Assembly: GCA_947630835.1 (NCBI GenBank)
Contig: CANRIZ010000006.1
Location: forward strand, 1-64,000
Source: an uncultured Clostridia bacterium
GTDB lineage: Bacteria; Bacillota; Clostridia; Oscillospirales; Acutalibacteraceae
DNA: 64,000 nucleotides
Reading direction: 5' to 3'
Shown here one piece after another: positions 4,021-58,806 of this stretch. The translations under genes were made by a program, and so were the position numbers. The notes under the pieces were generated by a model. The model saw only the letters and a program-made list of their open reading frames with translations, ran no database searches and was not told where the DNA came from. Every line of letters begins with the position of its first letter. Position 1 is the stretch's first letter.

Positions 4021-4032
4021 TAGTAATAGTAT

Positions 4033-4061
4033 TTGATTTGACAAATATTTTAATGTATAAT
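4033..4061 (+). promoter_or_regulatory. Promoter of the GH95 gene
   Basis: TTGATT (4033-4038), 17-base spacer, extended TG-TATAAT with the -10 box at 4056-4061. The GGAGGT ribosome binding site at 4090-4095 follows. Confidence 0.65.
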
Positions 4062-4101
4062 AGCAATAACCCATAAAACCGTTTTGAACGGAGGTAAGTT
4101 T

Positions 4102-6390
4102 ATGAATTCAAAGCTTTATTACGCCTCGCCCGCAAAATTTTGGACGGACGCCCTGCCACTGGGCAACGGAAGCCTTGGCGCAATGCTTTTCTCCGACGCA
4201 GATTTCAGGGGAATTGAGAGGATTGCCCTAAACTGCGACTCCCTTTGGACGGGGTATCCAAAAAGAACTGTAAAAGAGGGCGCTTTTGAAAGCTATGAAA
4301 GAGCAAAAGAGCTTGTAAAAGAAGGAAAGCTGTACGAAGCGCAAAAAGAGCTTGAAAATAATTTCTGCACCTGCTGGTCGCAGGCTTATCTTCCGCTCGG
4401 CGATTTATACTTGGATTTCGGAATAAGCGCAAAAAAAATCAGCGACTACAAAAGGGAGCTTGATTTGGAAAATTCCGTTTTGAACTGCGTTTACAAAAAA
4501 GGCTCTGCAAAATTCAAAAAAGAGGCTTTTATTTCGCATCCCGCAAGGGCTTTCGTTTACAAAATAAGCAGCGACAAGCCGTTTGCCTTTAATCTTCAAT
4601 TAAAATGCAAGCTTCAAAGCAAAAGCTTTGTTAAGGACAATATTCTGATTACCGAGGGAGTGTGTCCGAGCGATTCGGATTCCTATTCTCAAAAATACCC
4701 CTGTAATTCCCTTATCTATTCCGAAAAGCCCGAGGAACAGGGAATTTCATTCTGCTGCGCGGTTAAGGTTGTTACCGACGGGGAATGTTCGGGCTGTGGA
4801 GACGGACTGAATGTGAGCGCAAAAAGCGAAGCAACCGTTTACCTTTGCTGCGAAACGAATTTTACAGACGCTTTTACCCCGCCGTTTGAAAGCAAAAAGC
4901 CGTACAAAGAGCTTTGCTTAAACGCCGTTAATGCCGTAAGCTCGGCGGATTATTCAAAGATAAAGCAAGAGCACATAAAGGATTATAAAAATTACTACGA
5001 CAGGGTTTCCTTTACCCTGTGCGAAAAAAACGAAAATTCCGAACTGCCTACGGACAAAAGGCTTAAAGCCTTTACAAAGAACCAAGACGATTTGGAGCTT
5101 TACGAACTATTTTATAACTATGCAAGGTATCTTATGATTTCCTCGTCAAGAGAGGATACGCTTGCGACAAATTTACAGGGAATTTGGAGCGAAAACCTGA
5201 AAGCTCCCTGGAACTCGAACTATACCGTAAACATAAACACGCAAATGAATTACTGGTGCGCTCTGCCCTGCTCGCTAAAGGAGCTTACTCTGCCGCTTAC
5301 AAGGCTTACCGAAACGCTTTGCAAAAACGGCGAGGACACGGCGAAAAGCTATTACCGCGCAAAGGGCTTTGCGGCGCATCACAACAGCGACATATGGGGC
5401 TTTACCGCCCCTACCCTCGGCAATGTTCAATGGGCGTATTTTCAGGGTTCGTCCGGCTGGCTTTGCAATCATCTTTACGAATATTACGAATATACGCTTG
5501 ACAGGGAATTTTTAAAAAATACAGCTCTGCCGATAATCGAAAAAGCCGCAGAATTTTATTTGGACATAGTTTCGCAGGACGAAAACGGCAAATTAACGGT
5601 TTCACCGGCGGTTTCGCCCGAAAACTCCTTTAAATACGGAGGTCACAGCGTTTCGCTTGCAAAAAGCTCCGTAATTATGGACACTATAGTTCTTAACACC
5701 TTCAAAATTTACGTTAAGGCCTGCGAAGCGCTTGGATTAAGCGGCGAAACATACAAAACGGTATCGGATAAAATTCAAAGCTTTGATATTTTTAAAACGG
5801 GCTCAAAGGGTCAACTGCTCGAATGGGAAAAGGAATACGAGGAATGCGACATACATCACAGGCACGTTTCGCATCTTATCGGTCTGCACCCGTTTAACAT
5901 AATAAACGAAAAAGATATGCCCGAAATTTTCAACGCCTGCAAAAAGACGCTTGAAATCAGGGGCGACGACGGCACGGGTTGGAGCCTTGCATGGAAAATC
6001 AATTTTTACGCAAGACTTAAAAACGGCGAAAAGGCGTTAAAACTGCTTAACCGCCAGCTAAGGCCCGTCGTTTCCCGAAAAAAATCCAATTTCAATTACG
6101 GGGACGGCGGCGGAACTTACCCGAATATGTTTGACGCTCATCCTCCGTTTCAGATTGACGGAAACTTCGGCGCGGCTCAGGGAATTAACGAAATGCTTGT
6201 TCAATCCGACGGCGAAAACGTGTATCTGCTTCCCGCCAACCCGAAACGCTGGAAAAAAGGAAGCGTAAGAGGTATCAGCGTAAAGGGAAACGCCGCAATA
6301 GATTTTGACTGGGAGGACGGTAAAATTACCCGCTTTAAGCTTCACGGCAATACAAATTTGAATGTATATTTCAACAATACCAAGCTGTAA
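4102..6390 (+). CDS. Glycoside hydrolase family 95, alpha-L-fucosidase-like
   Basis: A 762-residue protein matching GH95 along its length: N-terminal beta domain opening with PLGNGSLGAMLF, then an alpha/alpha-barrel containing NINTQMNYW at 377-385 (the family's paired catalytic Asn residues) and FDAHPPFQIDGNFG from 677. GH95 enzymes are inverting 1,2-alpha-L-fucosidases, with some L-galactosidases. There is no signal peptide, so it should act in the cytoplasm on imported oligosaccharides. GGAGGT at 4090 selects the ATG at 4102 over an in-frame TTG at 4084. No transporter or other fucose gene is adjacent. The exact sugar specificity is inferred. Confidence 0.88.
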   Translation: MNSKLYYASPAKFWTDALPLGNGSLGAMLFSDADFRGIERIALNCDSLWTGYPKRTVKEGAFESYERAKELVKEGKLYEAQKELENNFCTCWSQAYLPLGDLYLDFGISAKKISDYKRELDLENSVLNCVYKKGSAKFKKEAFISHPARAFVYKISSDKPFAFNLQLKCKLQSKSFVKDNILITEGVCPSDSDSYSQKYPCNSLIYSEKPEEQGISFCCAVKVVTDGECSGCGDGLNVSAKSEATVYLCCETNFTDAFTPPFESKKPYKELCLNAVNAVSSADYSKIKQEHIKDYKNYYDRVSFTLCEKNENSELPTDKRLKAFTKNQDDLELYELFYNYARYLMISSSREDTLATNLQGIWSENLKAPWNSNYTVNINTQMNYWCALPCSLKELTLPLTRLTETLCKNGEDTAKSYYRAKGFAAHHNSDIWGFTAPTLGNVQWAYFQGSSGWLCNHLYEYYEYTLDREFLKNTALPIIEKAAEFYLDIVSQDENGKLTVSPAVSPENSFKYGGHSVSLAKSSVIMDTIVLNTFKIYVKACEALGLSGETYKTVSDKIQSFDIFKTGSKGQLLEWEKEYEECDIHHRHVSHLIGLHPFNIINEKDMPEIFNACKKTLEIRGDDGTGWSLAWKINFYARLKNGEKALKLLNRQLRPVVSRKKSNFNYGDGGGTYPNMFDAHPPFQIDGNFGAAQGINEMLVQSDGENVYLLPANPKRWKKGSVRGISVKGNAAIDFDWEDGKITRFKLHGNTNLNVYFNNTKL

Positions 6391-6394
6391 AAAA

Positions 6395-6427
6395 TTACGC
6401 TATGCTTTTTCGGCATAGCGTAAAATT
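6395..6427. terminator. Bidirectional terminator between converging genes
   Basis: Perfect 11-bp stem TTACGCTATGC (6395-6405)/GCATAGCGTAA (6413-6423), flanked by A and T runs on the two sides, between the GH95 gene (+) and the patatin gene (-). Confidence 0.75.
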
Positions 6428-7260
6428 TATATATAATCCATTATTCGCCGCGCGTCGTTGTAGCCCTTTTTATAAAGCAAATCAAGATGATGCTTTTCGG
6501 TAGAAAGAGTGTTTACGCTGCAGCAGTCGTCGGGAGAAACTATAAGGCATTTACCCTGCTTTTCAAGGGCGACAAGCTTATCTATGCTGTCGTTGTAAAT
6601 TTTATGCCTTACCTCTAAGCATTGGCTTATCATAGGATGATTTTTCCTTATAACCTTTGCGCACAGGTTGTCGATTTTTCCGTTGTTTCTGAATTCAACG
6701 GGTCTTGTAAGAATTACAACCGCCTTTTCACAGCCCTCCTCGAACGCCTTGTCTATGGGAACGGGGTCGGAAATCCCGCCGTCGTAATACTTTTCGCCGT
6801 CTATCTCGCAGCTGTTGCAAACCACGGGCAAGGTTGACGAAGCGTGAAAGACCTTGAAATTGTCAAAGCCTATATCCTTGTTTTCAAAATAATGCGGTTT
6901 GCCCGTACTGTTTTCGGTGGCAACCACAAAAAACTTGCCTTTATAGCGATGTAAATTTCGAAAATTCAGCGGGTCCTCGCCCGTTGAATCGGTCAAAACG
7001 GAATAAACGAAATTTAAATCCACATACGAGCCGTGGGTTCTGAAATTGCTCAGGCTCATATATTCCTTTCTTGACGCATAATCGGAATAAAAGCGATAGT
7101 TCCTCCCCTTTTGCTTTGCAAGATATGACGCAAGGTTTGCGCTGCCCGCCGACACGCCGATACAGCAGTCAAACTCAATGCCCTCATCAAGTAAGCGGTC
7201 AAATACGCCTGCGCCGTAGATTCCGCGCTGTCCGCCGCCGACATCAATAATTGCATTCAT
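6427..7260 (-). CDS. Patatin-like phospholipase
   Basis: A 277-residue patatin-family lipid acyl hydrolase. The oxyanion-hole motif GGGQRG is at 8-13, the nucleophile Ser37 lies in GVSAG, and the Asp of the catalytic dyad is in the later DGG motif (YYDGGISDPVP). There is no signal peptide, so a cytoplasmic or inner-membrane-associated role is likely. Its ATG overlaps the folK stop codon as ATGA, which indicates translational coupling to the folate operon, although no direct role in folate synthesis is known. The true substrate, phospholipid or another ester, is not visible. Confidence 0.88.
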   Translation of the reverse strand: MNAIIDVGGGQRGIYGAGVFDRLLDEGIEFDCCIGVSAGSANLASYLAKQKGRNYRFYSDYASRKEYMSLSNFRTHGSYVDLNFVYSVLTDSTGEDPLNFRNLHRYKGKFFVVATENSTGKPHYFENKDIGFDNFKVFHASSTLPVVCNSCEIDGEKYYDGGISDPVPIDKAFEEGCEKAVVILTRPVEFRNNGKIDNLCAKVIRKNHPMISQCLEVRHKIYNDSIDKLVALEKQGKCLIVSPDDCCSVNTLSTEKHHLDLLYKKGYNDARRIMDYI

Positions 7261-7730
7261 AAAATTACCTCGATTTTTGATCTGTCTGCGCTTTCAAACG
7301 CCGTTGAAAAGTCAAAGCCGAAAGCTATGTTTTCCGGGAACAAATCGTGTAACGGTATAAGTACAAAGTCACGCTGTAATATAAATTTGTGCGGAACGGT
7401 TAGTTCCTCGCCGGAGCTTTTGAAATTTTCAATTAACAGTATGTCAATATCAATAATTCTCGGTCCGTTCTTAAATTCCCTTATTCTGCCCATGCCCGCT
7501 TCAATTCCGAGGCAAGCGCCGAGCAAAGCGCCTGCGGAAAGCCCCGTTTCGACCAAAACGGCGCAGTTGTAAAAGCTTGGCTGTTCCTTATATCCCCAAG
7601 GCTGCGTTTCATAAACGCGGGATATTTCGCAAACCTTGGTTTTTGCAAGCAAATTAAGGGAGCTTACTGCGTTTTCGATGTTCTTTTTCCTATCGCCGAT
7701 ATTTGTTCCTATTCCGAGTACGGCTTTCAT
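7257..7730 (-). CDS. folK: 6-hydroxymethyl-7,8-dihydropterin pyrophosphokinase
   Basis: A 157-residue HPPK that transfers pyrophosphate from ATP to 6-hydroxymethyl-dihydropterin, just before the FolP step. Family signatures are clear: GIGTNIGDR at the N-terminus, YETQPWGY, and GPRIIDIDILL with the metal-binding Asp pair. Length is normal. It overlaps folB by ATGA upstream and the patatin gene by ATGA downstream, so these genes are translationally coupled. Confidence 0.96.
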   Translation of the reverse strand: MKAVLGIGTNIGDRKKNIENAVSSLNLLAKTKVCEISRVYETQPWGYKEQPSFYNCAVLVETGLSAGALLGACLGIEAGMGRIREFKNGPRIIDIDILLIENFKSSGEELTVPHKFILQRDFVLIPLHDLFPENIAFGFDFSTAFESADRSKIEVIL

Positions 7731-8089
7731 TCTCTGCTCCTTGTTATTTCAACGGCAACATATTGAAAATCCGCATTAATGGGCGCTTGCGGCTTTTTGA
7801 GCGTAACGTCCACCCGACGGATTTCACTGTATTGCTGTAAAACGGCGTCGGCAATTACCCGGGCCGCTTTTTCAAGCAAATCGTATTTTTCCACGGTAAA
7901 AACACGCCTTACCGTTTTAATTATTTTGGCGTAGCTTACCGTATCCTCGACATTGTCGCTTCGACAGGGCGTTTCAAGCGGAAGATGCGCCGTAAGGTCG
8001 ATTATAAACAACTGTCCGTCACGCTTTTCCTCGGCGTTAACGCCGTGATACGCATAAAGCTTTAAGCCTTTTATGATTATTTTATCCAT
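7727..8089 (-). CDS. folB: Dihydroneopterin aldolase
   Basis: A 120-residue FolB that cleaves dihydroneopterin to 6-hydroxymethyl-dihydropterin and glycolaldehyde. It begins MDKIIIKGLKLYAYHGV, the usual FolB start with the YHG motif, and has the C-terminal KPQAPI segment. The frame is open for seven more codons upstream, but AGGTGA precedes the ATG at 8089, and this start matches the family length. It lies between folP and folK in the operon. Confidence 0.95.
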   Translation of the reverse strand: MDKIIIKGLKLYAYHGVNAEEKRDGQLFIIDLTAHLPLETPCRSDNVEDTVSYAKIIKTVRRVFTVEKYDLLEKAARVIADAVLQQYSEIRRVDVTLKKPQAPINADFQYVAVEITRSRE

Positions 8090-8093
8090 AAAA

Positions 8094-8924
8094 TCACCTG
8101 ATTGCTTCATCGGTAATTTTTGCCGCCAAAACCGCCTGCTTTACATGATGAACCCTTATAAAATCCGTTTTGCCGGCTATTGCCAAAGTATTTGCCGCTA
8201 TAGTGGGAAAAAGCCTGTCCTCCCCCTGCGCTCCCGTGTTTTCCCCGGTTACCCTTTTGCAGGAAAGCGCGGTTAAAAGCGCTCTGTCTTCCCTTTTAAG
8301 CAAATTTATATTTTTGATTAATTGTATATTGTCGCTGTGAGATTTTCCGAAGCCTATGCCCATATCAAGGCAAACGCTTTCCGATTTAATATCAAAATCC
8401 TTTGCCGCTTTTTCAGCCATTTCAAAAAAGGAATTAACAGCGTTTACAACGCCGTCGTATCCGGAATAATCGCAAATATCCGAAGCGTTTGACGGGTTGT
8501 GAACTATTATCCAGCCCGAATTGTGTCTTTTTACCGTTTTCGCCATTTCAGGATTAAGCGTTCCGCTGACGTCGTTAATTATCTTTGCCCCGTTTTCAAG
8601 GCAGTATTCGGCAACCTCGGGGTAAAAGGTATCTATTGAAACGGGTATGCTTACAGCCTTCGCAACGGGAATCAAAAACCGCTTTACAAGCCTAAGCTCC
8701 TCCTCGAAGCCGAGCGTCACGCTGCCCGGTCTCGTGGACTGTGCGCCGATATCTATAATATCCGCGCCCTCAAGCTCCATTTCGACAGCCCTTTTTACGG
8801 CTTTTTCGGGAGAGTTATACTTTCCGCCGTCAAAAAACGAATCGGGCGTGACGTTCAATATACCCATAATATAGGTTCTTTTGTTTATTTCAAACGAAAA
8901 GCCGCCGCCTTTGAAAAAATACAA
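8094..8924 (-). CDS. folP: Dihydropteroate synthase
   Basis: A 276-residue DHPS that joins the pterin pyrophosphate to p-aminobenzoate and is the target of sulfonamides. The pterin-site signature MGILNVTPDSFFDGG is at about 20-34, followed by DIGAQSTRPGS and SIDTFYPEVA. The start is most likely TTG at 8924: GGAGG lies eight bases upstream, inside the end of folE, and the next Met (residue 20) would cut into the barrel. It follows folE after one base. Confidence 0.94.
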   Translation of the reverse strand: MYFFKGGGFSFEINKRTYIMGILNVTPDSFFDGGKYNSPEKAVKRAVEMELEGADIIDIGAQSTRPGSVTLGFEEELRLVKRFLIPVAKAVSIPVSIDTFYPEVAEYCLENGAKIINDVSGTLNPEMAKTVKRHNSGWIIVHNPSNASDICDYSGYDGVVNAVNSFFEMAEKAAKDFDIKSESVCLDMGIGFGKSHSDNIQLIKNINLLKREDRALLTALSCKRVTGENTGAQGEDRLFPTIAANTLAIAGKTDFIRVHHVKQAVLAAKITDEAIR

Positions 8925-8925
8925 A

Positions 8926-9489
8926 TTATTTTCCTCCGAAAAGCAGAGACATTGCCTCCGCCCTTGTTCTTGCGTCGGATTTCATCGTTCCCCTCAAAGC
9001 CGAGGTCTGCGTTACCGCGCCCGCCGCCCGCGCGCCACGCATGGTCATACAAAGATGCTCCGCCTCGATAACCACGGCGACGCCCTTGGGTGAAAGATTT
9101 TCCTCAAGAAAATCCGCTATCTGCGAAGTAAGCCTTTCCTGAAGCTGGGGACGTTTTGAAAAATTATCGACTATCCTTGCAAGCTTTGAAAGCCCTATAA
9201 CCTTATTGTTGTTGGGTATGTAAGCAATATGGGCCTTGCCTATAAAGGGAAGCAGATGATGCTCGCACATAGAATACATTGGTATATCCCTTACGACTAC
9301 CATCTCGTCGTTTTTTCCCTCGTTAAAAAGCTTTAAATGCCTTTCGGGATTGTCCGAAAGCCCGGCAAAAATTTCCCCGTACATTCTCGCCACTCTTGCG
9401 GGCGTTTCCGCAAGCCCTTCCCTGTCGGGATTTTCACCAATGGCAATAAGGATTTCCCTTACGGCTTTTTCTATTCTTTCCTTGTCCAT
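8926..9489 (-). CDS. folE: GTP cyclohydrolase I
   Basis: A 187-residue type IA GTP cyclohydrolase that turns GTP into dihydroneopterin triphosphate, the entry step of folate synthesis. Zinc ligands are Cys75 in MCEHH and Cys147 in HLCMTMRG, with the second-sphere histidines present. Start ATG has a good AAGGAAG site. It is the first folate gene of folE-folP-folB-folK and begins only 23 bases after the transglutaminase-like gene, so it may be co-transcribed with it. Confidence 0.97.
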
Positions 9490-9512
9490 TTTAATCTTCC
9501 TTTTTTACGCTT

Positions 9513-10646
9513 TTAAGAAAAAGCGAACATAAAAGCATATAAATTATCGTCCGTAATATACTGTACGTTTTCAAAGCGTATATTATAAGTCCTATACAGT
9601 TCTCTGAAAATTTCGCCCAAGCCGTCGTTTTCCGTAAGGGCGTTAAGCGCAGATTTATATTCCTTTTCGCTTGTAAAGCCGAATTCACAGATGTTTTTGC
9701 CGTTATTGTAATTTGAACGTATATTGTTTATTATACTTTTCCTCGCGGCGGCGTCATATTTTTCAAAGCGCATTTTTGTTACATTGCCGTAATTGTAATC
9801 GGTAAAATTGCAATTGTTTTCGGCGGGGTTGAAATCGGAATGAGTTTTGCCCATCATTTCGTCGGTCAGGTTAAAATAAATATGATTGCCGTCAAACAAT
9901 TCTTGCGAATCCATATCGTCCCAGGTAATATCAAGGTGATAATTTTGGGAATTTACGGTTACTATATTCCACATATGCCCCTGCGTGCCGCCGCTTTCGT
10001 CTGCCGCGTTACCGGTTATAAGATAATTTTTTACGGACAACCTGTCCAAAAGCAGCTTCGCCGCCTTGGCATAGCCCTCGCAAACAGCGCTGCCGTCTAC
10101 GAAAACGGAATATGCGCTTATTTTATCCTGCTTATCGCCGCTTTCGTCGTAGGTGCAAATTTTACATATATAATCGTGAACGTAAAGCTCTTTTTCATAC
10201 TCGCCGGCGTCCTTGCTTATTCCCGAAAGAGCCTTGCTTACGGCGGTTTCGAGTCTTTCTTTTACAGCCGCGCATTCCTGCTCCGAATGGGTGTAGCTCG
10301 GACAGTAATAAAACCTGTTTCCCTGCGTTTTAAGACTGCTTTGAGTTCCTATACAGCACAAATCGGGATTATCATAGGAAAGAGCGTACATAAGCAAATT
10401 AAATTCTTCGCTTGTAATCTCGGGAATTTCGATAGCTTCACGGTGCTTGTAAAGCCCGGGAAGTATCAGGGTATATGCCGTTTTGGCGTTTGAATCGAGA
10501 TTGTCGTAATAATATCTGCCGTCATTTTCATAAACGAGCGTTGTATCGGAAAAATCTGTTTTTGAATATCTGTTTGCGTAAACGAAAGTGAAAACGCAAA
10601 GGACCGATACAAAAAATCCCAATACGGATAACAGCTTAGACCTCAT
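9513..10646 (-). CDS. Membrane-anchored transglutaminase-like domain protein
   Basis: A 377-residue protein with an N-terminal hydrophobic segment (about 5-24) serving as signal anchor. The central part carries a transglutaminase-like Cys-His-Asp triad: AVCEGYAKAAKLLLDRL (Cys), GHMWNIV (His) and YHLDITWDD (Asp). Such domains act as cysteine proteases or protein cross-linkers at the cell surface; the activity here is unknown. Its ATG overlaps the stop of the LCP-like gene as ATGA, so the two products are translationally coupled and probably work together. Confidence 0.82.
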   Translation of the reverse strand: MRSKLLSVLGFFVSVLCVFTFVYANRYSKTDFSDTTLVYENDGRYYYDNLDSNAKTAYTLILPGLYKHREAIEIPEITSEEFNLLMYALSYDNPDLCCIGTQSSLKTQGNRFYYCPSYTHSEQECAAVKERLETAVSKALSGISKDAGEYEKELYVHDYICKICTYDESGDKQDKISAYSVFVDGSAVCEGYAKAAKLLLDRLSVKNYLITGNAADESGGTQGHMWNIVTVNSQNYHLDITWDDMDSQELFDGNHIYFNLTDEMMGKTHSDFNPAENNCNFTDYNYGNVTKMRFEKYDAAARKSIINNIRSNYNNGKNICEFGFTSEKEYKSALNALTENDGLGEIFRELYRTYNIRFENVQYITDDNLYAFMFAFS

Positions 10647-11500
10647 TGCGTTACCTCAATTACCTGCGATAAGGTTTCCGCAGGCACAAACTCGCCCTTC
10701 GCCGTCATAAACGCCGCAATTTTCTCCTTTTCACGGGAAAAATCAATTATGGAAATATCCGTTTGAGAATTATTTGCAAGGTAAGAAAACAGACTTTCAA
10801 GGCCGTCAACATTTTTACTGTCGAAAACCACGGAAAGCATATTGCAGAATGCCTTGGTCTTTTCGATATTGTCGGCGTATTTTATATATTTCAGCAAAAG
10901 GTCCGAAGTAAGATTTTGCGGTCCCTTGTTAAGGTTGAGCCCGCCGGAGGACGCGGCGTTTATCGCCTGCGGCACGTCGACGGTTACATCTTCGAATTTT
11001 GCCATAAAATTTTTAAACTGCACTTCGTTTACAAATATATATTTATCAATATCCAAGCCGGAATAATCTTCAAGCGCATGGACATAGCTCTCGGCGCCCC
11101 TGTATTTAAAATGGTCGTTGAGCGTCGAGGTCACCCCGCCGTAGGAAGCCGTGAGCGTTATAGGCACATAAACAGTATCCGCCGTCATCTTTTCATAGTC
11201 GCTTTTTACCAAAAACGCAAAGGACAAATCCCCGTCCGTATTTCCGCAAAGCACCGCAACGCTGATTCCGCCTGAATATTTTTGGGTTAGCTCGCTTTGC
11301 ACGCTTTCCTCGGCGGAGGTGCTTTCGCCCGACGAGGGCAGCATATTTTTTAAATTAAAATTAAGCGATTTCATAAACATAAGTAAAGATATGGTCCCAA
11401 GCACTATTATAAAAGCAACAAAGCTTATTATAAAGGTTTTAAATCTTTTGCTTTTTTCGCTGTTCTTCATAGAATAATTCAGCTTTTTGCGAGGCTTCAT
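10643..11500 (-). CDS. Degenerate LytR-CpsA-Psr-like membrane protein
   Basis: A 285-residue protein with one transmembrane helix (about 21-44) and an extracellular domain whose order resembles the LCP fold: ISVAVLCGNTDGD, then LNDHFKYRGAESYVHALEDYSGLDIDKY, then FEDVTVDVP, then a poorly conserved tail. LCP proteins attach polymers to peptidoglycan, but the expected PRDT arginine, the YVRSR-type arginine and the RQ pair are not seen (VPITLT, YIKYAD and EKTKAF stand there). It may therefore be a non-catalytic relative. The assignment to LCP is by pattern only. It is coupled to the transglutaminase-like gene. Confidence 0.6.
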   Translation of the reverse strand: MKPRKKLNYSMKNSEKSKRFKTFIISFVAFIIVLGTISLLMFMKSLNFNLKNMLPSSGESTSAEESVQSELTQKYSGGISVAVLCGNTDGDLSFAFLVKSDYEKMTADTVYVPITLTASYGGVTSTLNDHFKYRGAESYVHALEDYSGLDIDKYIFVNEVQFKNFMAKFEDVTVDVPQAINAASSGGLNLNKGPQNLTSDLLLKYIKYADNIEKTKAFCNMLSVVFDSKNVDGLESLFSYLANNSQTDISIIDFSREKEKIAAFMTAKGEFVPAETLSQVIEVTQ

Positions 11501-11545
11501 ATCTTCACTTCCCTGTTTAAAGCTTAGGAATACTTAATTTTATGT

Positions 11546-11577
11546 GTTAAAAAGCCGACTGCTCAGCAATCGGCTTT
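11546..11577 (-). terminator. Terminator of clpX
   Basis: On the minus strand AAAGCCGA (11577-11570) pairs with TCGGCTTT (11558-11551) and runs into a T tract. It begins nine bases after the clpX stop codon and separates clpX from the LCP-like gene. Confidence 0.75.
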
Positions 11578-11585
11578 AAATCTGA

Positions 11586-12878
11586 TTAACCTGCGGTTTT
11601 CGGAGTCTTTTCCGAATTACCGCTTATTTTTTCGCCGTTAATTCTTTCGATTATCGGACTTTCGCCGTTAGTTATACATTCCTTTGTTATAACTACCTTG
11701 GTAACGGTATTGTCGGAGGGTATTTCGTACATAACGGGAAGCAGCGCCTTTTCCATTATTGCCCGCAAGCCCCTTGCGCCCGTTTTCTTTTCAAGCGTAA
11801 GCTTTGCGACCGCCCTCAACGCTTCGTCGCTGAATTCAAGCGAAACTCCGTCCATTGAAAACAACGCCTTATACTGCTTTAGCAAAGCGTTTTTCGGTTC
11901 GGAAAGTATGCGGATTAAGGCGTCCTCGTCAAGCTCGTTGAGCGCCGTAATTACGGGAACCCTGCCTACAAGCTCCGGAATAAGCCCAAATTTTACAAGG
12001 TCCTGCGGAATTACCTTCGCATAAACCTTTGACATATCAAGCTTTGATTTATCTATTACGTTGCCGCCGAAGCCGAGGGTGGATTTTCCAGTTCTCGTTT
12101 CGACTATTTTTTCAATCCCGCTGAATGCGCCGCCGCAGATAAACAAAATGTTGGTTGTATCTATCTGTATAAACTCCTGCTGAGGATGCTTTCTTCCGCC
12201 CTGCGGAGGCACGTTCGATACCGTGCCCTCAAGTATTTTGAGAAGCGCCTGCTGGACTCCCTCGCCGCTTACGTCGCGGGTAATGGAGGGATTTTCGGAT
12301 TTTCTGGCAATTTTGTCGATTTCGTCAACGTAGATAATTCCCTTTTGCGCCTTTTCAATATCGTAATCCGCCGCCTGAATAAGCCTTAAAAGGATATTCT
12401 CTACATCCTCGCCGACGTATCCCGCCTCCGTAAGAGTGGTTGCGTCCGCTATGGCGAATGGCACGTCAAGTATCTGCGCAAGCGTTTGAGCAAGCATTGT
12501 TTTGCCTACGCCCGTAGGCCCTAAAAGAACAACGTTGCTTTTCTGAATATCCACATCGCTCTTATAGCCGTAATATATTCTTTTGTAATGATTGTAAACG
12601 GCGACGCTCAGGGCAATTTTTGCCTCATCCTGCCCTACAACGTATTCGTCAAGCTTTGCCTTGATTTCGCCGGGTTTCGGCAAAGGCTTAACGGCGGTTT
12701 CCTTTTTCTTTTGTCCTCTGCGATTGGATGAACCTTCCTCCTCGATAATGCCAAGGCATAATTCTATACATTCATCGCAAATGCAGACTCCGGGACCGGC
12801 AATGAGCTTTTCCACCTGGTCCTGCGACTTGCCGCAAAAGGAACAGCGCATTACCTTACTGTCCATATCTCTCGCCAT
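11586..12878 (-). CDS. clpX: ATP-dependent Clp protease ATPase subunit ClpX
   Basis: A 430-residue AAA+ unfoldase that feeds tagged substrates, including tmRNA-tagged proteins, to ClpP. An N-terminal C4 zinc domain (CSFCGKS ... [10 protein letters not shown]) precedes the AAA+ module with Walker A GPTGVGKT, Walker [13 protein letters not shown], the sensor region and the RGLRAIME C-terminal box; the IGF-type ClpP docking loop is present as LGFGG-flanked sequence. It follows clpP after 19 bases and ends at the 11.55 kb terminator. ssrA and smpB occur at 57-58 kb in the same window. Confidence 0.98.
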
Positions 12879-12897
12879 AAACGGCTACCTCCGAAGA

Positions 12898-13479
12898 TTA
12901 TCTCTTGTAAAGAACCTTATCGACAAGACCGTATTCAAGAGCCTCCTCGGCAGTCATAAAGTTATCCCTGTCCGTATCTCTTGCAATTTCCTCTATAGGC
13001 TTGCCTGTATTCTCCGCAAGAATTTTATTGAGCTTTTCCTTGGTTCTTAAAATATGCTTTGCGGTAATCTCTATTTCCGTCGCCTGCCCCTGCGCGCCGC
13101 CCGAGGGCTGATGAATCATAATATCGGCGTTGGGAAGGGCGTATCTTTTTCCCTTTGCGCCGGAAGAAAGCAGAAAAGCTCCCATGCTCGCCGCCATACC
13201 CATACAGATGGTTGAAACGTCGCATTTGATATACTGCATGGTGTCGTAAATCGCAAGCCCTGCGGTTACCGAGCCGCCGGGGCTGTTGATATAAAGGCTT
13301 ATATCCTTTTCGGGATCCTGCCCTTCAAGGAACAAAAGCTGCGCCACAACAAGGCTTGCGGTAGTGTCGTTTACTTCATCGGATAAAACTATAATCCTGT
13401 CGTTTAAAAGTCTTGAAAAAATGTCATATGAGCGCTCGCCCCTGCTGGTCTGCTCAACAACATAAGGTACCAATGCCAT
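12898..13479 (-). CDS. clpP: ATP-dependent Clp protease proteolytic subunit
   Basis: A 193-residue serine protease forming the tetradecameric ClpP chamber. The catalytic triad is Ser98 in GMAAS, His123 in MIHQPSGG and Asp172. The start [10 protein letters not shown] at 13479 follows GGAGGTAAG; the frame opens five codons further upstream but without a better site. It is located between tig and clpX, the common tig-clpP-clpX order. Confidence 0.98.
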
Positions 13480-13555
13480 AAAACTTACCTCCAAAATATT
13501 ATTTATCCCTTTTACATAAATTATTATTGAAAGAAAGTATCAGCTTTAATCAATA

Positions 13556-14947
13556 TTATTCCTCCGCCTTTTTGGCAGCGGGCTTTTTAGCCGTGATTTT
13601 CTTGGCGGCGGGCTTCTTCTCACCGCTTTCGGCCTTTGCGGCGGACTTTTTGCTTTCAGCCTTTTCCTCGGTGAACACGGCGTTTTCAACTATAAAATCT
13701 ACAGCCTTGCGGTTGAGGATTTCGGGTTTGATATTGTCGGCGGGAACGGCCTTTTTAATCTGTTCAATATCCATATTATATGCGTCGGCATACTTCTTGT
13801 ATTCATCCTCAAGATCCTCGGGAGTTACCTCAAGCTTTTCCTTTTTAATGATTTCCTCAACGGCAAGGTCAAGCTTAACCTGCTTTACCGCCTGCTCCCT
13901 GTAGCTGTCGCGGATGGATTTTTCATCCGTACCCGTGTATTTAAAGTATGTTTTAATATCAAGCCCCTGCATCTGAAGACGGTATGCAAAATCGTCTATA
14001 TCCCTGTCGATTTTCTTTTCTATCATACAGTCGGGGATAACGGCCTCAACCGAATCGGCAACCGCTTCAAGAGCGTCGCCGCTTGCCTGAGCCTCCGCCT
14101 CCTGCTTTTTCTTGTTTTCAAGCTCCGTCTTTACGCTCTTTTTATATTCCTCAACCGTATCGAATTCGCTTACGTCCTTAACAAATTCATCGTCAAGCGC
14201 GGGCAATTCCTTTATCTTTATTTCGTGAAGCTTGCATTTGAAAACAGCGTCCTTACCGGCAAGCTCCGGAGTATATTCCTCGGGGAATTTAACGTTTACC
14301 TCAAATTCTTCGCCCGCCTTGTGACCTATAACCTGATCCTCGAAGCCCGGAATAAACTGCCCCGAGCCGAGAGTAAGCTCAAAATTCTCTCCGCTGCCGC
14401 CTTCAAACGGTTCGCCGTCAACAAAGCCTTCAAAGTCGATAACCGCAATATCGTCCTTCTTTGCGGCTCTTTTCCTTTCAACGGTGACTATTCTTGAATT
14501 CTGCTCAAGGGTTGCGTTGATATGGTTTTTAACCTCCTCGGCGGAAACCTTTGCGGACTTTTTGCTTACCTTAACGCCCTTGTATTTGCCGAGCTTGACC
14601 TCGGGCTTAACGGTAACCTTAACCTTCATAACCACGCCGTCCTTGCCCATTTCGGGAATGTCAAGGTCAAACGGAGTGTCGATTACCTCAAGCTTGGACT
14701 CCTCGATAGCGTCGGAAACGGCGTCGGGATAAATGATTTCAAGAGCGTCCTCATAGAACACCTTTTCGCCGTACAGCTTTTCGATAAATCCCCGCGTCGC
14801 CTTACCTTTACGGAAGCCCGGAATATTTATCTTTTTTCTCTGCTGAAGATAAGCCTTGTTTACGGCAGCTTCAAAGGTCTCGCCGTCAACGGCAATCTCA
14901 AGCTCCCAAACATTTTCCTCAACCTTGTTTGATGATTTCAAACTCAT
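13556..14947 (-). CDS. tig: Trigger factor with Lys/Ala-rich tail
   Basis: A 463-residue ribosome-bound chaperone and peptidyl-prolyl isomerase. It has the ribosome-binding domain with the signature GFRKGKA (about 45-51), the FKBP-type PPIase domain (DIAVIDFEGFVDGEPFEGG), and the helical C-terminal chaperone domain. The last 35 or so residues form an unusual basic tail with repeated AAKK/PAAKK blocks, longer than the ordinary trigger factor of about 430 residues. ATG follows AGGAGGAAC. It is transcribed from its own extended -10 promoter. Confidence 0.96.
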   Translation of the reverse strand: MSLKSSNKVEENVWELEIAVDGETFEAAVNKAYLQQRKKINIPGFRKGKATRGFIEKLYGEKVFYEDALEIIYPDAVSDAIEESKLEVIDTPFDLDIPEMGKDGVVMKVKVTVKPEVKLGKYKGVKVSKKSAKVSAEEVKNHINATLEQNSRIVTVERKRAAKKDDIAVIDFEGFVDGEPFEGGSGENFELTLGSGQFIPGFEDQVIGHKAGEEFEVNVKFPEEYTPELAGKDAVFKCKLHEIKIKELPALDDEFVKDVSEFDTVEEYKKSVKTELENKKKQEAEAQASGDALEAVADSVEAVIPDCMIEKKIDRDIDDFAYRLQMQGLDIKTYFKYTGTDEKSIRDSYREQAVKQVKLDLAVEEIIKKEKLEVTPEDLEDEYKKYADAYNMDIEQIKKAVPADNIKPEILNRKAVDFIVENAVFTEEKAESKKSAAKAESGEKKPAAKKITAKKPAAKKAEE

Positions 14948-15000
14948 TTACTGTTCCTCCTAAAGCTTTTACCTTTTTTGAGTTTATACACATTTGAGAT

Positions 15001-15006
15001 ATTATA
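15001..15006 (-). promoter_or_regulatory. Extended -10 promoter of tig
   Basis: On the minus strand the perfect -10 box TATAAT is preceded by TGA, giving the TGNTATAAT extended form; the -35 region is poor (TGGTAA). It lies about 55 bases upstream of the tig start codon. Confidence 0.5.
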
Positions 15007-15048
15007 TCAGATTAAGCGCAAAATTACCATAGTTTTTTAACATTTTCT

Positions 15049-15735
15049 TTATTTTATGAATTTCGGACAAAAATTGAGGTAATCTGCGGATAAAAGTTCA
15101 AATTTTATACCATTCCTGACGCCGTTGAAAGAAAAATTTGCCGCTCGGTCGTGCAAATGAGCATAGTAGCAATTTGTAATTTTTTCCTCTGCAAGGACGT
15201 CGAAAATCGGCCCGCAGACCTGCTCGCTTGTAAGAGGCGGATAATGCAGGAACACATAAGGCTCGCCGCCGGCAAGCCTGCCCGCTTTAACGGAAGCGCG
15301 AAGTCTGCCCGCTTCCCTTAAAATGATTTTATCCGTATTTTCTTTTTCCGCGTCGAAGAACCAACCCCTCGTCCCGCAGACGCTGACGCCGCCGACAAGG
15401 TAGGAATTGTTTAAAAGGAAGCTGATGGTTTTAAAAGAATTTTCCTCTAAAAAGGCGTTCATTTTGGTTAAGGTGTTCCACCAATAATCGTGATTTCCCT
15501 TTAAAATAATTTTTTTGCCGGGCAGGTTTTCGATAAAGCGAAAATCCTCAACCGCCTCCTCGAGCTTCATAGCCCACGAGGTATCGCCCATTAAAACCAC
15601 GGCGTCGTCGTCGTCAATTAATTTTTTCCAATTTTTTTCGATTCTGTTCACGTAATCCGTCCAGCCTCGAAAAACATCCATAGGCTTATCAACGCCAAGC
15701 GACAGATGAAGATCACCTATTGCATACAATGACAT
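15049..15735 (-). CDS. Calcineurin-like metallophosphoesterase
   Basis: A 228-residue two-metal phosphoesterase. The motifs occur in order: DLHLS (Asp-x-His), VVLMGDTSW (Gly-Asp), LKGNHDYWW (Gly-Asn-His-Asp), LHYPPL and a final HLHD. It resembles uncharacterised bacterial phosphohydrolases often annotated as Ser/Thr phosphatase-like. No signal peptide. The substrate is unknown. GGAG precedes the ATG. It lies between the tig promoter and the divergent DUF1540 gene. Confidence 0.87.
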   Translation of the reverse strand: MSLYAIGDLHLSLGVDKPMDVFRGWTDYVNRIEKNWKKLIDDDDAVVLMGDTSWAMKLEEAVEDFRFIENLPGKKIILKGNHDYWWNTLTKMNAFLEENSFKTISFLLNNSYLVGGVSVCGTRGWFFDAEKENTDKIILREAGRLRASVKAGRLAGGEPYVFLHYPPLTSEQVCGPIFDVLAEEKITNCYYAHLHDRAANFSFNGVRNGIKFELLSADYLNFCPKFIK

Positions 15736-15814
15736 AATTTAAACTCCGCACAAATGAATAAAAAGTAAAATACGGTTTAAAATAATAAAACAAAACGAAA
15801 GGAGATTATCGGTT

Positions 15815-15970
15815 ATGATCAGAGAAATTAAATGCGACGCAACAAACTGCGTTTATAACGAAGGCACTTACGAATGTCACGCCGACCATATAGACGTTGA
15901 CTGGAGCAAAGGCTGCGACTGCTGCGAAGCGAAGTGCTCAACATTTTCGCTTAATGATTCCTCCAAATAA
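15815..15970 (+). CDS. DUF1540 small cysteine-rich protein
   Basis: A 51-residue protein starting MIREIKCDATNCVYNEGTYECHADHIDVDW and ending in a second Cys-rich segment (CDCCEAKC). The spacing C-x4-C-x8-C followed by A-x2-I-x-V matches DUF1540, small proteins common in Clostridia that probably bind metal; their function is unknown. A clear AAAGGAG lies before the ATG. It is a short monocistronic gene between two minus-strand genes and is easily missed because of its size. Confidence 0.8.
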   Translation: MIREIKCDATNCVYNEGTYECHADHIDVDWSKGCDCCEAKCSTFSLNDSSK

Positions 15971-36353: not shown

Positions 36354-36370
36354 AATTACAAATAAAAGTT

Positions 36371-36480
36371 GTCTTCAGGGCGGGGTGCGAGTCCCCACCG
36401 GCAGTAAAGTCTGCGAGCCTTTTACGGGTTGATTCGGTGAAATTCCGAAACCGACGGTATAGTCCGGATGAGAGAAGATG
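36371..36480 (+). promoter_or_regulatory. FMN riboswitch (RFN element)
   Basis: The conserved core is visible in order: TCAGGGCGGGGTGCGAGTCC, CCACCGGCAGTAAAG, CTGCGAGCC, GGTGAAATTCCGAAACCG, ACGGTATAGTCCGGATGAGAGAAG. It lies between a consensus promoter and a terminator in front of ribU. FMN binding should end transcription early and so reduce riboflavin uptake. Confidence 0.96.
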
Positions 36481-36499
36481 TATAATTTATACATTGCTT

Positions 36500-37220: not shown

Positions 37221-37245
37221 TTCTATGACAAATAAATAAAATTAT

Positions 37246-37340
37246 CCTTATAAAGAGTGGTTGAGGGACGGGCCCTGTGAAGCCACGGCAACCTGCCTTG
37301 CGCAAGGTGCTAAATCCTGCGGTTTTACCGAAAGATAAGG
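37246..37340 (+). promoter_or_regulatory. SAM-I (S-box) riboswitch
   Basis: P1 is closed by CCTTAT (37246-37251)/ATAAGG (37335-37340). Core motifs follow in order: AGAGTGG, GAGGGACGGGCCC, TGAAGCCACGGCAACC, GGTGCTAAATCC and GAAAGATAAG. SAM binding should favour the terminator directly downstream and lower SAM synthetase expression. Confidence 0.96.
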
Positions 37341-37345
37341 TGTCG

Positions 37346-38966: not shown

Positions 38967-39980
38967 ATGAACAAAGGTTTTAAAAAGGTTCTGTCATTGT
39001 TAATGACATTGGCAATGATACTAACAGCTTTGCCCCTTGCAGGGGTTACCGCGTTTGCGGAGGACGAAACTCACACAAGCGGAGATTTTGAGTATACTAT
39101 ACTCGAAGACGGCACGGCGGAGATTACGGGTTATACAGGTAATGCGGAAACGCTTGAAATTCCGTCAGAGCTTGATGAACACGCAGTTACAAGTATAAAT
39201 AGTGCATTTGATTTTTGTGAAAGCTTAACAAGTGTAACTATACCTGACAGCGTTACAAACATAGGTCTTGGCGCATTTGAGGGCTGTACCAACCTAACAA
39301 GTATTATAATACCTGACGGCGTTACAAACATAGGTGTTTGTGCCTTTAGGTATTGTCACAGTTTAACAAGTGTTAATATACCCGACAGTGTCACAAACAT
39401 AGATCATGCTGCATTTGGATTTTGCATAAGTTTAACAAGCGTAATAATTCCCAAAAGCGTTACAAGTATAGGTTGGTTGGCGTTTCATGGTTGTGACAAC
39501 TTAACCGACATATATATTTTAAACAAAGATTGTGATTTTTATTTTTACTCCAATCCAATACCGGCAAATGCTACAATACACAGTTACGCCGGCTCTACTG
39601 CCGAAGAATATGCAAATAAACTTGGCAACAAGTTTGCGGTAATTGAAGATGAGCCTGTAAATCAGGGTGATTCGACAAATCCCGATAATCAGGTTAACAC
39701 TGATAACCCTGTAAGTTCCTATAACCCTACAAACCCCGACAATCCGGCAACGCCTGATGTACCAAAAACAAATGGCGACGTTAACTTAGACGGCAAGTTA
39801 TCAACCGTAGATGCAAAATGGATTTTGCAGAACATAGCAAAGTCAAGAGATTTCAGCGACGAGCAATTCAGAGCCGCCGACCTCAACGGCGACGGTAAAT
39901 TATCTGTAGTAGACGTTAAATGGGTACTTCAGATAGTTGCCGGTATGCGTGACGGCAACACTTTGGAATCGGTTAATTAA
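38967..39980 (+). CDS. Secreted BspA-like leucine-rich-repeat protein with C-terminal dockerin
   Basis: A 337-residue exported protein. A signal peptide (about 1-31, ending GVTAFAED) is followed by five or so BspA-type LRR_5 repeats of 23 residues (consensus LTSVxIPDSVTNIGxxAFxxC, residues about 75-190), an Asn/Pro/Asp-rich linker, and a type I dockerin near 270-332 with two calcium loops, DVNLDGKLSTVD and DLNGDGKLSVVD. The dockerin should bind a cohesin on a cellulosome scaffold or the cell wall; no cohesin is in the window. The DNA is more AT-rich with different codon use than its neighbours. Strong AGGAGG; preceded by an attenuator-like hairpin. Confidence 0.9.
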   Translation: MNKGFKKVLSLLMTLAMILTALPLAGVTAFAEDETHTSGDFEYTILEDGTAEITGYTGNAETLEIPSELDEHAVTSINSAFDFCESLTSVTIPDSVTNIGLGAFEGCTNLTSIIIPDGVTNIGVCAFRYCHSLTSVNIPDSVTNIDHAAFGFCISLTSVIIPKSVTSIGWLAFHGCDNLTDIYILNKDCDFYFYSNPIPANATIHSYAGSTAEEYANKLGNKFAVIEDEPVNQGDSTNPDNQVNTDNPVSSYNPTNPDNPATPDVPKTNGDVNLDGKLSTVDAKWILQNIAKSRDFSDEQFRAADLNGDGKLSVVDVKWVLQIVAGMRDGNTLESVN

Positions 39981-54488: not shown

Positions 54489-54636
54489 GCCTTAATTGGG
54501 TCATGTACCGTGTTGGTCCTGTGCGACAGCGCTCTGTGAATCATGTCAGGCGGGGAACCGAGCAGCATTAAGCGGTCAGCCTGTGCGATACAGTCAAGCC
54601 TGCGCGGTGCATGACCGAATTAAGGCGCTTTTTTTA
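54489..54636 (+). ncRNA. ffs: Signal recognition particle RNA
   Basis: A 138-base RNA plus U tract. The ends pair over 20 bp (GCCTTAATT...TACCG with CGGTGCATGACC...TTAAGGC). The apical domain IV is recognisable from GTCAGGCGGGGAACCGAGCAGC (54545-54566), the Ffh-binding symmetric and asymmetric loops with a GGAA tetraloop. The position just before dnaX-ybaB-recR is the usual one in Firmicutes. It is longer than the minimal 4.5S type but lacks a clear Alu domain. Confidence 0.92.
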
Positions 54637-57317: not shown

Positions 57318-57330
57318 TTAAGGTTTGATT

Positions 57331-57792
57331 ATGTCAGAGGAAAAGAGAACGGTTGCACAGAACAAAAAAGCCTACCACGACTACTTCGTTTTGGAGGAGT
57401 ACGAGGCGGGTATCGAGCTGTTCGGTACAGAGGTTAAAAGCGTGCGCGCAGGCAAAATAAACCTGAAGGATTCCTGGTGCAGTATCGTTAAAGGCGAAAT
57501 TTTTGTAAACGGTATGCACATAAGCCCTTACGAACAGGGAAATATTTTTAACAGGGACCCTTTGAGAGTAAAAAAACTGCTTATGCACAAAAAGGAAATT
57601 AACAGGCTTTTCGGCACTACGAAGCAGCAGGGCTTAACGCTTATCCCGCTTTCCGTATATTTTGTTAAGGGAAAGGCAAAGGTTAAAATCGGTCTTTGCA
57701 AGGGCAAAAAGAATTATGACAAGCGTGAAGTTGCGGCTAAGAAGGAAGCGCAGAGAACCATAGACAGAGTGATAAAGGAGCGTAATAGATAA
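57331..57792 (+). CDS. smpB: SsrA-binding protein
   Basis: A 153-residue tmRNA partner that places tmRNA in the stalled ribosome. It has the [18 protein letters not shown] segment, [17 protein letters not shown] and the basic C-terminal tail. The ATG at 57331 is preferred over a TTG two codons earlier because AAGG is spaced for it. Encoded 52 bases before ssrA, so both partners of trans-translation are made together. Confidence 0.97.
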
Positions 57793-57844: not shown

Positions 57845-58195
57845 GGGGATGAAAGGATTTCGACGGGGATTTTGAACCGTGATAAGCGAGCGGTGGCGAG
57901 GCACCACCATAAAAGCTTCAAGTTTAGAAATAAACGACAACAATAAAGTTTTACTTGCCGCTTAACTAAAAGCGGCTGTTCCCTCGGGAAGTACTGCGGT
58001 CCCGAACGGAGCATCATTTAGCAGTAAATGTGAACGGGCAAGCGTCCTGTAGCCCGTCACACACAACAGGACTACCGAAGCTCAAAGCCTGTCGTTAGGC
58101 GCTGTGCCAAGGGAATTTTAAAATAACGAATACGCTCGTAGAAAGTCACGGGAATGGATTTTCGGACGCGGTTTCGATTACCGCCATCTCCACCA
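57845..58195 (+). ncRNA. ssrA: Transfer-messenger RNA
   Basis: A 351-base tmRNA. The 5' GGGGATG (57845-57851) pairs with CATCTCC (58185-58191) to form the acceptor stem, followed by A-CCA at the 3' end; the T arm reads GGTTTCGATTACC. The 5' domain has the usual GGATTTCGACGGGG. The tag frame ends GTT TTA CTT GCC GCT TAA (57948-57965), giving a tag of INDNNKVLLAA if the resume codon is the AUA aligned with the usual GCA. CCA is encoded. Confidence 0.97.
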
Positions 58196-58371
58196 TAGAA
58201 GAGAAGTGCGAACCTGAGTTCGTGCTTCTCTTTTTATTTTTTGGCGGTACTCGAAACCGTAGTCCATGCCGAGCGGTTTGCCGTCAGGCAGAGCGAGGCG
58301 GACATATAAATGCGATAGGGTTGCTCAGCAACCGAACGAAGCGAAGCTTCGGGTTACCTCCGGCTCCACCA
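58196..58371 (+). repeat. Post-tmRNA tandem repeat, unit 1
   Basis: 176 bases. Order within the unit: an intrinsic terminator, GAGAAGTGCGAAC (58201-58213)/GTTCGTGCTTCTC (58218-58230) plus T tract; an inverted copy of tmRNA 3'-end sequence (58243-58270); short hairpins TGCC-GTC-GGCA, GGTTGC-TCA-GCAACC and CGAAGC-GAA-GCTTCG; and a tmRNA-like 3' end, TTACCTCCGGCTCCACCA. The first copy of the terminator probably serves ssrA. Confidence 0.95.
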
Positions 58372-58547
58372 TAGAAGAGAAGTGCGAACCTGAGTTCGTG
58401 CTTCTCTTTTTATTTTTTGGCGGTACTCGAAACCGTAGTCCATGCCGAGCGGTTTGCCGTCAGGCAGAGCGAGGCGGACATATAAATGCGATAGGGTTGC
58501 TCAGCAACCGAACGAAGCGAAGCTTCGGGTTACCTCCGGCTCCACCA
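58372..58547 (+). repeat. Post-tmRNA tandem repeat, unit 2
   Basis: As far as I can read it, base-for-base identical to unit 1, again 176 bases and ending CTCCACCA. Contains a second copy of the terminator. Confidence 0.95.
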
Positions 58548-58723
58548 TAGAAGAGAAGTGCGAACCTGAGTTCGTGCTTCTCTTTTTATTTTTTGGCGGT
58601 ACTCGAAACCGTAGTCCATGCCGAGCGGTTTGCCGTCAGGCAGAGCGAGGCGGACATATAAATGCGATAGGGTTGCTCAGCAACCGAACGAAGCGAAGCT
58701 TCGGGTTACCTCCGGCTCCACCA
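58548..58723 (+). repeat. Post-tmRNA tandem repeat, unit 3
   Basis: Third identical 176-base copy ending CTCCACCA at 58723, where it abuts an unrelated terminator. No further unit follows. Confidence 0.95.
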
Positions 58724-58754
58724 AAAATCCGAGGTCTTTAAACCTCGGATTTTT
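58723..58754. terminator. Terminator closing the repeat array
   Basis: AAAAATCCGAGGT (58723-58735) pairs perfectly with ACCTCGGATTTTT (58742-58754). It is symmetrical enough to act on both strands. The 50 bases after it are a CTTCAC-rich stretch with no gene. Confidence 0.85.
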
Positions 58755-58806
58755 ACTTCTTCACTATTACATCTTCACTTTTCACTTGCAGTTTTTCGGG
58801 TAATTA

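Follow-up and report, generated by a model that had tools for sequence, protein, structure and literature searches.

Since the 1970s, the 178-bp repeats of the Escherichia coli tyrT region have stood as a curiosity with little explanation. These RtT units (tyrT/tyrV; Rfam RF00391, rttR) lie in tandem behind a tRNA gene with a length of about 178 bp, and each carries a portion of the T-arm in inverted form (GGGGAAGGAT), then hairpins and, at its end, the 3' end of the tRNA repeated directly (AATCCTTCCCCCACCACCA); the Rfam consensus pairs the inverted with the direct arms and leaves a CCACCA tail. BLAST searches of E. coli genomes gave a median of 3 and a maximum of 10 matching places in each, and RtT is annotated as a small RNA processed from the tyrT transcript. 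The units from Clostridia described here are alike in size and tandem order and share this plan. They differ in that a terminator precedes the body of the unit, and in their hosts, since RtT was at tRNA-Tyr where present (three E. coli regions) whereas the Clostridia units stand, with tailored arms, behind tRNAs of 20 isoacceptor labels and behind the tmRNA. The RtT model matched neither the array reported below (at a lax threshold) nor loci of six relatives, and gave 0 matches at E ≤ 1 in the whole genome that carries the array, with a positive E. coli control. As only the plan is shared and no model match was obtained, homology with RtT was rejected and the units were filed as tRNA-downstream repeats.

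REP and BIME sequences are short intergenic bulged palindromes present in many copies. The Clostridia units, and likewise the free type II copies treated below, resemble these and other dispersed hairpin repeats in being short, non-coding, intergenic and many-copy bulged palindromes, and are set apart by their site at tRNA ends, their tRNA-derived arms and, for the genome that carries the array, the lack of a Y1 transposase. In integron attC cassettes and the CTX-phage attP, inverted arms are split by hairpins and the recombination site is rebuilt in a folded single strand. Hairpin-separated inverted arms and direct tandem order are common to both and to our units, the arms of which, unlike those of attC and attP, are T-arm sequence of a tRNA.

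Islands inserted at tRNA and tmRNA genes (Islander; Dehalococcoides ssrA) leave a displaced 3' tDNA fragment downstream of the gene in the same orientation, use the tmRNA end as a site and form tandem arrays. All of this holds for the units too, which differ in measuring 0.1-0.2 kb, in being devoid of genes and integrase and in carrying an inverted T-arm copy in addition. In the available excerpts of the Islander report, the T loop and the T/acceptor junction are known crossover subsites, tyrosine recombinases are the only ones known to target tRNA/tmRNA genes, and candidates shorter than 2 kb or without an integrase are discarded (PMC4383910); more repeats of the present kind may exist because such short integrase-less candidates are dropped by design. 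Unlike the statement on tyrosine recombinases, the report on Dehalococcoides ssrA islands, in its available excerpts, has a serine recombinase (DsiB) at ssrA, together with 20-bp ssrA repeats and a repeat embedded in a dsiB gene; these islands stand in tandem and some have no integration module (PMC3146451).

The array behind the tmRNA gene

The window, that is, the whole stretch of 64,000 nucleotides analysed here (contig CANRIZ010000006.1 of assembly GCA_947630835.1, positions 1 to 64,000), contains on its forward strand a tmRNA gene (ssrA, 57845..58195; Rfam RF00023, 159 bits) with the tag DNNKVLLAA. It is the host gene of the array and its T-arm is the one copied by the units. The open reading frame directly upstream of this gene (57325..57792, forward strand) we take, from its sequence, to be smpB-like. 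Positions 58196 to 58723 consist of three gapless 176-bp units (58196..58371, 58372..58547 and 58548..58723, all on the forward strand), which are 100% identical, and the first base of the first unit adjoins the CCA of the tmRNA. Unit 1 begins with hp0, a terminator-like hairpin plus T-run (58196..58242). This is followed by RC, an inverted copy of the tmRNA T-arm (58243..58259) that in the window units agrees with the reverse complement of the T-arm at 16 of 17 bases, and by hp1 (58262..58303), a conserved bulged hairpin of the form GTCC-AT-..-GG-TTTGCC.., supported by covariation and by our covariance model R1, which matches at 58262-58311 with E 5.5e-17. Two small hairpins predicted by folding come next, hp2 (58319..58333, GGTTGC/GCAACC) and hp3 (58337..58351, CGAAGC-GAA-GCTTCG). 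The unit closes with D, a direct copy of the tmRNA 3' end (58354..58371), and the end of every unit, TTACCTCCGGCTCCACCA, is identical to the tmRNA end TTACCGCCATCTCCACCA at 15 of 18 positions.

A terminator follows the last D of the array (58724..58757), and a similar one stands after the tmRNA array of a relative (G001; G, C and L numbers are our handles for genomes, contigs and loci). Terminators behind CCA ends (window 58724-58800; L091; L162; L216) run on as TTTTTACTT..TTCACTATTCACTTTTCACT-like repeats, which by eye are common to several loci and genomes.

A protein-coding reading of the array was ruled out, given that its only two reading frames of at least 80 amino acids both cross unit borders and that 176 is not a multiple of 3. 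The hp1 finder gave three matches in the window, all within the array, and none in five base-shuffled windows. Above the gathering scores of Rfam nothing except the tmRNA was obtained in this part of the window; at a lax threshold, the additional matches were low-scoring and all under their own gathering scores.

A preliminary description made from the letters of the window had already given the three identical 176-bp repeats right after the tmRNA, with correct coordinates and letters, and we found again the inverted T-arm copy, the tmRNA-like CCACCA end, the terminator and the three further hairpins that it reported for each unit, to which it credited no protein. Its suggestion that each unit restores a CCACCA end was not supported. 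All three copies differ from the tmRNA end at the same three positions of D, as expected from a recent tandem duplication of one diverged unit, and growth of the array by unequal exchange is the simplest account of identical units with these shared mismatches.

Occurrence of the hp1 family

With the 176-bp unit as query, a further partial copy was found in its own genome (contig C36), and many more copies appeared in the genus, apparently behind tRNA genes, when 98 genomes (own and relatives) were searched. The hairpin hp1 was defined from 20 aligned copies (GTCC, AT bulge, stem, GG bulge, TTTGCC...GGCAGA, mirrored). Both sides had changed in 6 of its 17 pairs and in 20 cells, neither value being reached by any of 500 shuffles, and slid alignments used as controls gave at most 4 cells; one of the five measures, further pair types, was not unusual (47/500 shuffles). 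R1 matched in 34 of the 39 genus genomes at E ≤ 0.01, two of them (G037 and G005) with a weak match only (E about 0.001), and in 32 at E ≤ 1e-5, with up to 25 matches in one genus genome among the matches listed; these genomes are related and hence are not independent samples. In a family sample 16 of 200 genomes matched, 14 of these being outside the genus (8 of the 14 at E ≤ 1e-5), and in a class sample matches at E ≤ 1e-5 were limited to 2 of 291 genomes, namely the own genome and another one with no tRNA in the locus retrieved.

An exact 23-mer of the unit had no match in a collection of genome contigs that perhaps lacks the own genome. A degenerate hp1 pattern retrieved 23 stretches from genome contigs, titled uncultured Clostridia, Clostridiales, Clostridiaceae or Oscillospiraceae, and some titles of hp1-bearing records name the rumen, the goat omasum or the rabbit ("Lapin", in our reading). 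The same pattern had no match in a collection of viral contigs, so that no phage link was obtained with that exact pattern, and neither the hp1-pattern searches of genome and viral contigs nor the R1 searches revealed a parent transposon of the MITE type. Searches of the open-licence PMC literature brought up no description of this repeat family.

For the counts given below, 210 raw hp1 finds from flanks retrieved at many, not all, of the R1 matches listed were reduced to 142 distinct units by dropping overlapping or contained contexts, a step by which identical copies inside long arrays may have been lost as well; the stricter hp1 finder gave no find in 11 of the 60 loci L129-L188 although R1 matched there. 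A genus-wide family of non-coding elements of roughly 110-200 bp at tRNA and tmRNA 3' ends is well supported by these data.

Unit plan and fit to the neighbouring tRNA

The usual order of parts was the terminator hp0, RC (inverted T-arm of the local tRNA), hp1, two small hairpins and D. RC covers roughly bases 3-20 of the last 30 of the tRNA, and D is a direct copy of the local tRNA 3' end from the T-loop to CCA. We regard this plan as nearly certain. In 110 of the 142 distinct units, a tRNA or tmRNA on the same strand preceded the unit by at most 1500 bases; the other 32 include gap-broken tmRNAs, which ARAGORN missed (L091), and contig starts. When only the nearest tRNA within 300 bases was considered, it was upstream on the same strand in 98 units, downstream on the same strand in 2, on the opposite strand in none and absent in 42. 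Hosts were the tmRNA (16 units), Ser(gct) (14), Glu (12), Lys (12), Ala(ggc) (11), Arg(acg) (7) and others, amounting to 20 isoacceptor labels plus tmRNA, with the same 20 found within the genus alone (103 units); the labels are those of ARAGORN, to which we credit them because Ala(cgc) in L028 looks misassigned. In the 73 first units, hp1 started 55-118 bases past the tRNA end, mostly 55-83. The tie to tRNA and tmRNA 3' ends drawn in the preliminary description is thus real and general, and the units, which were found at other tRNA and tmRNA genes as it had proposed to check, form a general tRNA-end family and are no peculiarity of the tmRNA; they were not scattered without a link to tRNA ends, though a free minority form exists.

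Both arms fitted the tRNA beside them. In 92 of the 110 units no other isotype gave RC a better match than its own tRNA, which was strictly the best in 80, and the same was true of D in 93 (strictly the best in 91), with mean scores of 12.9 for own against 6.4 for other tRNAs in RC and 17.5 against 5.8 in D. By eye, some of the misfits were units that lack an arm and belong to compound or truncated arrays. Within one isotype, RC fitted its own variant better in 31 of 63 first units, equally in 18 and worse in 14, and the tmRNA of the window was among these 14. The pairing between RC and D scored 7.9 on average, vs. 5.7 with swapped partners, and 19 of 73 units beat every swap, which weakens direct RC:D pairing as the main constraint; RC matches the tRNA better than it pairs with its own D.

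At the tmRNA loci L211, L214 and L215 (G011, G019 and G018, respectively) the same plan of terminator, RC, hairpins and D occurred without hp1, so that the plan is wider than the hp1 family. Some tRNA units were truncated (e.g., L031, L042, and L054).

Units within one genome and their spread

The own genome was tested at 40 tRNAs and the tmRNA; the flanks of two of these tRNAs are cut off by the end of a contig, which one Val(tac) gene reaches and from which Lys(ttt) is 56 bases away. RC and D both stood out at Glu(ttc), Arg(acg), Ser(gga), and Ala(ggc), where none of 100 shuffles reached the RC or the D score. At the tmRNA no shuffle reached RC and 3 of 100 reached D, because the D of the window has diverged. 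RC scores were 13-15 at the tmRNA and these four tRNAs, and the highest value elsewhere was 8. At His(gtg) and one Val(tac), both in tRNA clusters, D was unreached by shuffles, yet RC was low; the D signal there is probably the T-arm of the next tRNA. The Lys(ttt) array, 56 bases from its contig end, evidently continues at the start of contig C3, and contig C20 holds a lone copy like the Ser(gga) unit with no tRNA in the 2.7 kb retrieved. Bodies of the tmRNA and Ala units were 93% identical and their D 67%, and in the Arg, Lys and Ser units the bodies were 84-90% and the D 62-81% identical; similar bodies with unlike D ends in one genome indicate that the same body has been fitted with different tRNA ends. 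In G000, contigs break inside arrays (C36, end 4616; C34, end; C3, start), and copy numbers from draft genomes are therefore lower bounds.

Across 75 genome-by-tRNA combinations, the nearest relative of the body came in 31 cases from a different genome but the same tRNA and in 14 from a different tRNA of the same genome, as compared to 5.3 and 4.2 expected from shuffled labels, respectively, and belonged to neither class in 30. Both descent and movement within genomes have left traces. Occupancy was patchy. In a survey by eye of 30 tmRNA loci (190 bases each), an hp1 unit stood immediately behind the gene in 7 and the same plan without hp1 in 3, an RC-like stretch only was seen in 1 (G006) and one farther on in 1 (G017), nothing was noticed in 15, and 3 ended at a contig end or gap. 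Five more genus genomes (G029, G034, G023, G010, and G008) had tmRNA units at other loci.

Free hp1 elements with inverted arms of their own, which we call type II, occur in the same genus (L050, L051, L052, L094, L154, L156, L163, L167, L175, L176, L186, and others; genomes G008, G009, G010, G031, and G032). They are flanked by TTATTTTACCATAA-like arms, and in several of them the upstream, inverted and downstream copies covary (ACC, ATC, and AAC forms; AAC in L102, G035). Among the tRNA-less units tested, 11 of 31 matched RC well on both sides.

In the Arg(acg) array of L130 (about 1389-2120), units 1, 3, and 4 have the same terminator and unit 2 another one, with RC, hp1, and D nearly unchanged despite this difference. 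A CGTCGTCGCAAGC-headed repeat, with variants, begins at the CC(A) of a D in L022, L041, L043, L129, and L130.

Terminators, pairing and folding

A terminator hairpin with T-run lay between the tRNA and RC in 70 of the 73 first units and in 1 of 73 control stretches; a cruder test for perfect-stem terminators gave 41/73 and 10/73, respectively. From the presence of hp0 in 70 of 73, the part from hp1 to D is predicted to be rarely transcribed. In the first three inner pairs of hp1, for which the finder demands Watson-Crick or G.T pairs so that mismatches are excluded by construction, G.T pairs amounted to 2 of 288 (96 distinct hp1), vs. 35 of 490 in the acceptor stems of 70 tRNAs from the same loci (Fisher P = 1e-5). 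Deeper in hp1, GA/AG mismatches were common, and one position was T.G in 17 of the 20 aligned copies, which means that G.T pairs are not absent from hp1.

A GNA triloop closed by C-G is a very stable loop in single-stranded DNA. GNA triloops were present in 104 of the 166 small hairpins behind hp1, 95 of them closed by C-G. Folding was compared with shuffles in two units, the window unit (z of -1.9 as RNA and -2.1 as DNA) and the Arg unit (-3.4 and -4.2, respectively). The Arg unit formed a 10-bp RC:D stem both as RNA and as DNA, and none of 200 shuffles was as stable; in the window unit the RC:D stem was partial as RNA and absent from the DNA minimum.

Recombinases and islands at tmRNA ends

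The own genome (99.3% complete) had no Y1 transposase at E ≤ 0.001, no large serine recombinase at E ≤ 1e-5 and a single tyrosine recombinase at E ≤ 1e-10. The latter is probably the housekeeping Xer enzyme, judging from similar scores and lengths in many genomes; 36 of the 39 genus genomes have one at that level. Y1 transposases were present in 23 of the 39. The numbers of Y1, large serine and tyrosine recombinases did not correlate with the number of units over these 39 genomes (Spearman 0.23, -0.06, and 0.25, respectively; all P > 0.1), and a partner enzyme recognisable by its presence was discarded. A stack of elements driven by an integrase had been the first interpretation of the array: the likeness of D to an att fragment and the patchy occupancy of the tmRNA site agree with it, and the scarcity of recombinases in the own genome does not. 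The tyrosine recombinase that was to be sought elsewhere was found once in the own genome, with counts over the 39 genomes that do not track unit number, and this speaks against ongoing integrase-driven stacking. We know of no integrase scheme that includes a tRNA-specific inverted T-arm copy.

The tmRNA of G008 is separated from the unit by some 15 kb that encode a relaxase, a tyrosine recombinase and a large serine recombinase (L223, contig C53, about 600-15950). The serine-recombinase reading frame runs across a TCTCCACCA copy, and the junction on the tmRNA side is hidden by an assembly gap. Together with the Dehalococcoides parallel, this island makes it likely that elements also land at tmRNA ends in this genus; the small units need not stem from island insertion there. 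On contig C20 of G008 (L162/L224), what by eye is a serine-recombinase-like C-terminus lies directly upstream of a unit that resembles the tRNA-Gln unit of G010; another island may lie here, at a tRNA end that bears a unit.

Origin of the units

Units of one plan, location and orientation, tailored to their tRNA, patchily distributed and with near-identical bodies behind different ends were thus observed. The reading we prefer, with a probability of roughly 0.45, is a hairpin repeat that acts at the DNA level and is carried from one tRNA end to another by recombination of the host or by template switching. The element would be a palindrome able to fold, placed immediately after a short gene of very high activity. 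Copies would pass between tRNA genes of one genome and be re-fitted to the local T-arm through T-arm homology and foldback in the course of replication or repair, whether by template switching, by gene conversion or by single-strand annealing, with no recombinase of the element's own. Copy number at one tRNA may then rise and fall, and arrays grow, through unequal exchange between units, and each copy would add one more terminator, and one more fragment of a tRNA end at which islands could land. Against this reading stands the fact that tyrosine integrases leave just such a copy, running from the T-loop to CCA. The partial agreement of RC with its own isotype variant, the RNA folding that beats most shuffles and the transcription of the E. 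coli look-alike, by annotation, count against it, as do the 42 of 142 units without a tRNA within 300 bases.

The copy from T-loop to CCA would be explained directly if the units were cassettes mobilised in trans, i.e., minimal integrated elements with D as attR, inserted at the tRNA T-loop by a tyrosine or serine recombinase of an island or by an Xer-type enzyme, and the form inserted may be a folded single strand whose RC and D pair and rebuild the site as in attC and attP. D extends from the T-loop to CCA, and known crossover subsites are the T loop and the T/acceptor junction (PMC4383910, available excerpts), orientation is fixed, order is tandem and occupancy patchy, the Arg unit folds with its 10-bp RC:D stem, and the G008 island apparently uses the same tmRNA end, as Dehalococcoides ssrA islands do, some of which exist without an integration module (PMC3146451, available excerpts). 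The own genome has a single tyrosine and no large serine recombinase, recombinase numbers do not correlate with unit number, the hosts are too numerous for one integrase of usual specificity (20 isoacceptor labels plus tmRNA), all window copies have the same diverged D and swapped RC:D partners gave a moderate result; we consider this reading unlikely. It is clearly improbable that the units work as an RtT-like RNA, by read-through of the tRNA terminator, processing at CCA ends and release of an antisense T-arm (RC) whose target is its own tRNA or the stringent response. The shared plan of RtT, an annotated small RNA from the tyrT transcript, the covariation of hp1 and the fact that, within 300 bases, the nearest tRNA never lay on the opposite strand would suit such an RNA, as would the modulatory effects of RtT on the stringent response described in the available part of PMC4986893, which, like that of PMC2965389, cites Bosl and Kersten (1991). 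The terminator before RC in 70 of 73 first units, to which further units in the arrays read add more, the low number of G.T among the first three inner pairs of hp1 and the free copies away from tRNAs argue against it. Slightly less probable still is an absence of function, in which tRNA fragments left over from past island insertions lie beside a dispersed REP-like hairpin and inverted arms stay matched by ordinary quasi-palindrome correction. Type II elements with their own inverted arms, the 11 of 31 tRNA-less units with matches on both sides and the truncated units fit this, and the recurrence of one order of parts at 20 isoacceptor labels plus tmRNA, and of the same plan with unrelated sequence in E. 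coli, does not.

A further idea, and a doubtful one, is that of gene-less mobile DNA with targeting arms written from the target, in which an hp1 core settles behind tRNAs or the tmRNA and is refitted with RC and D of the local T-arm, RtT being an independent or very distant case. If true, each new copy would already be addressed to its own site. That one genus has repeats of this plan at 20 isoacceptor labels plus tmRNA, most of them fitted to the tRNA beside them, turns a single odd E. coli locus into a comparative system for the origin, mobility and function of such repeats.

Other features of the window

Rfam matches elsewhere in the window corresponded to an FMN riboswitch (36367-36483), a SAM riboswitch (37245-37341) and a small SRP RNA (54510-54608). 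A 69-bp tandem repeat of 2.8 copies with 74% matches was located at 39226-39417.
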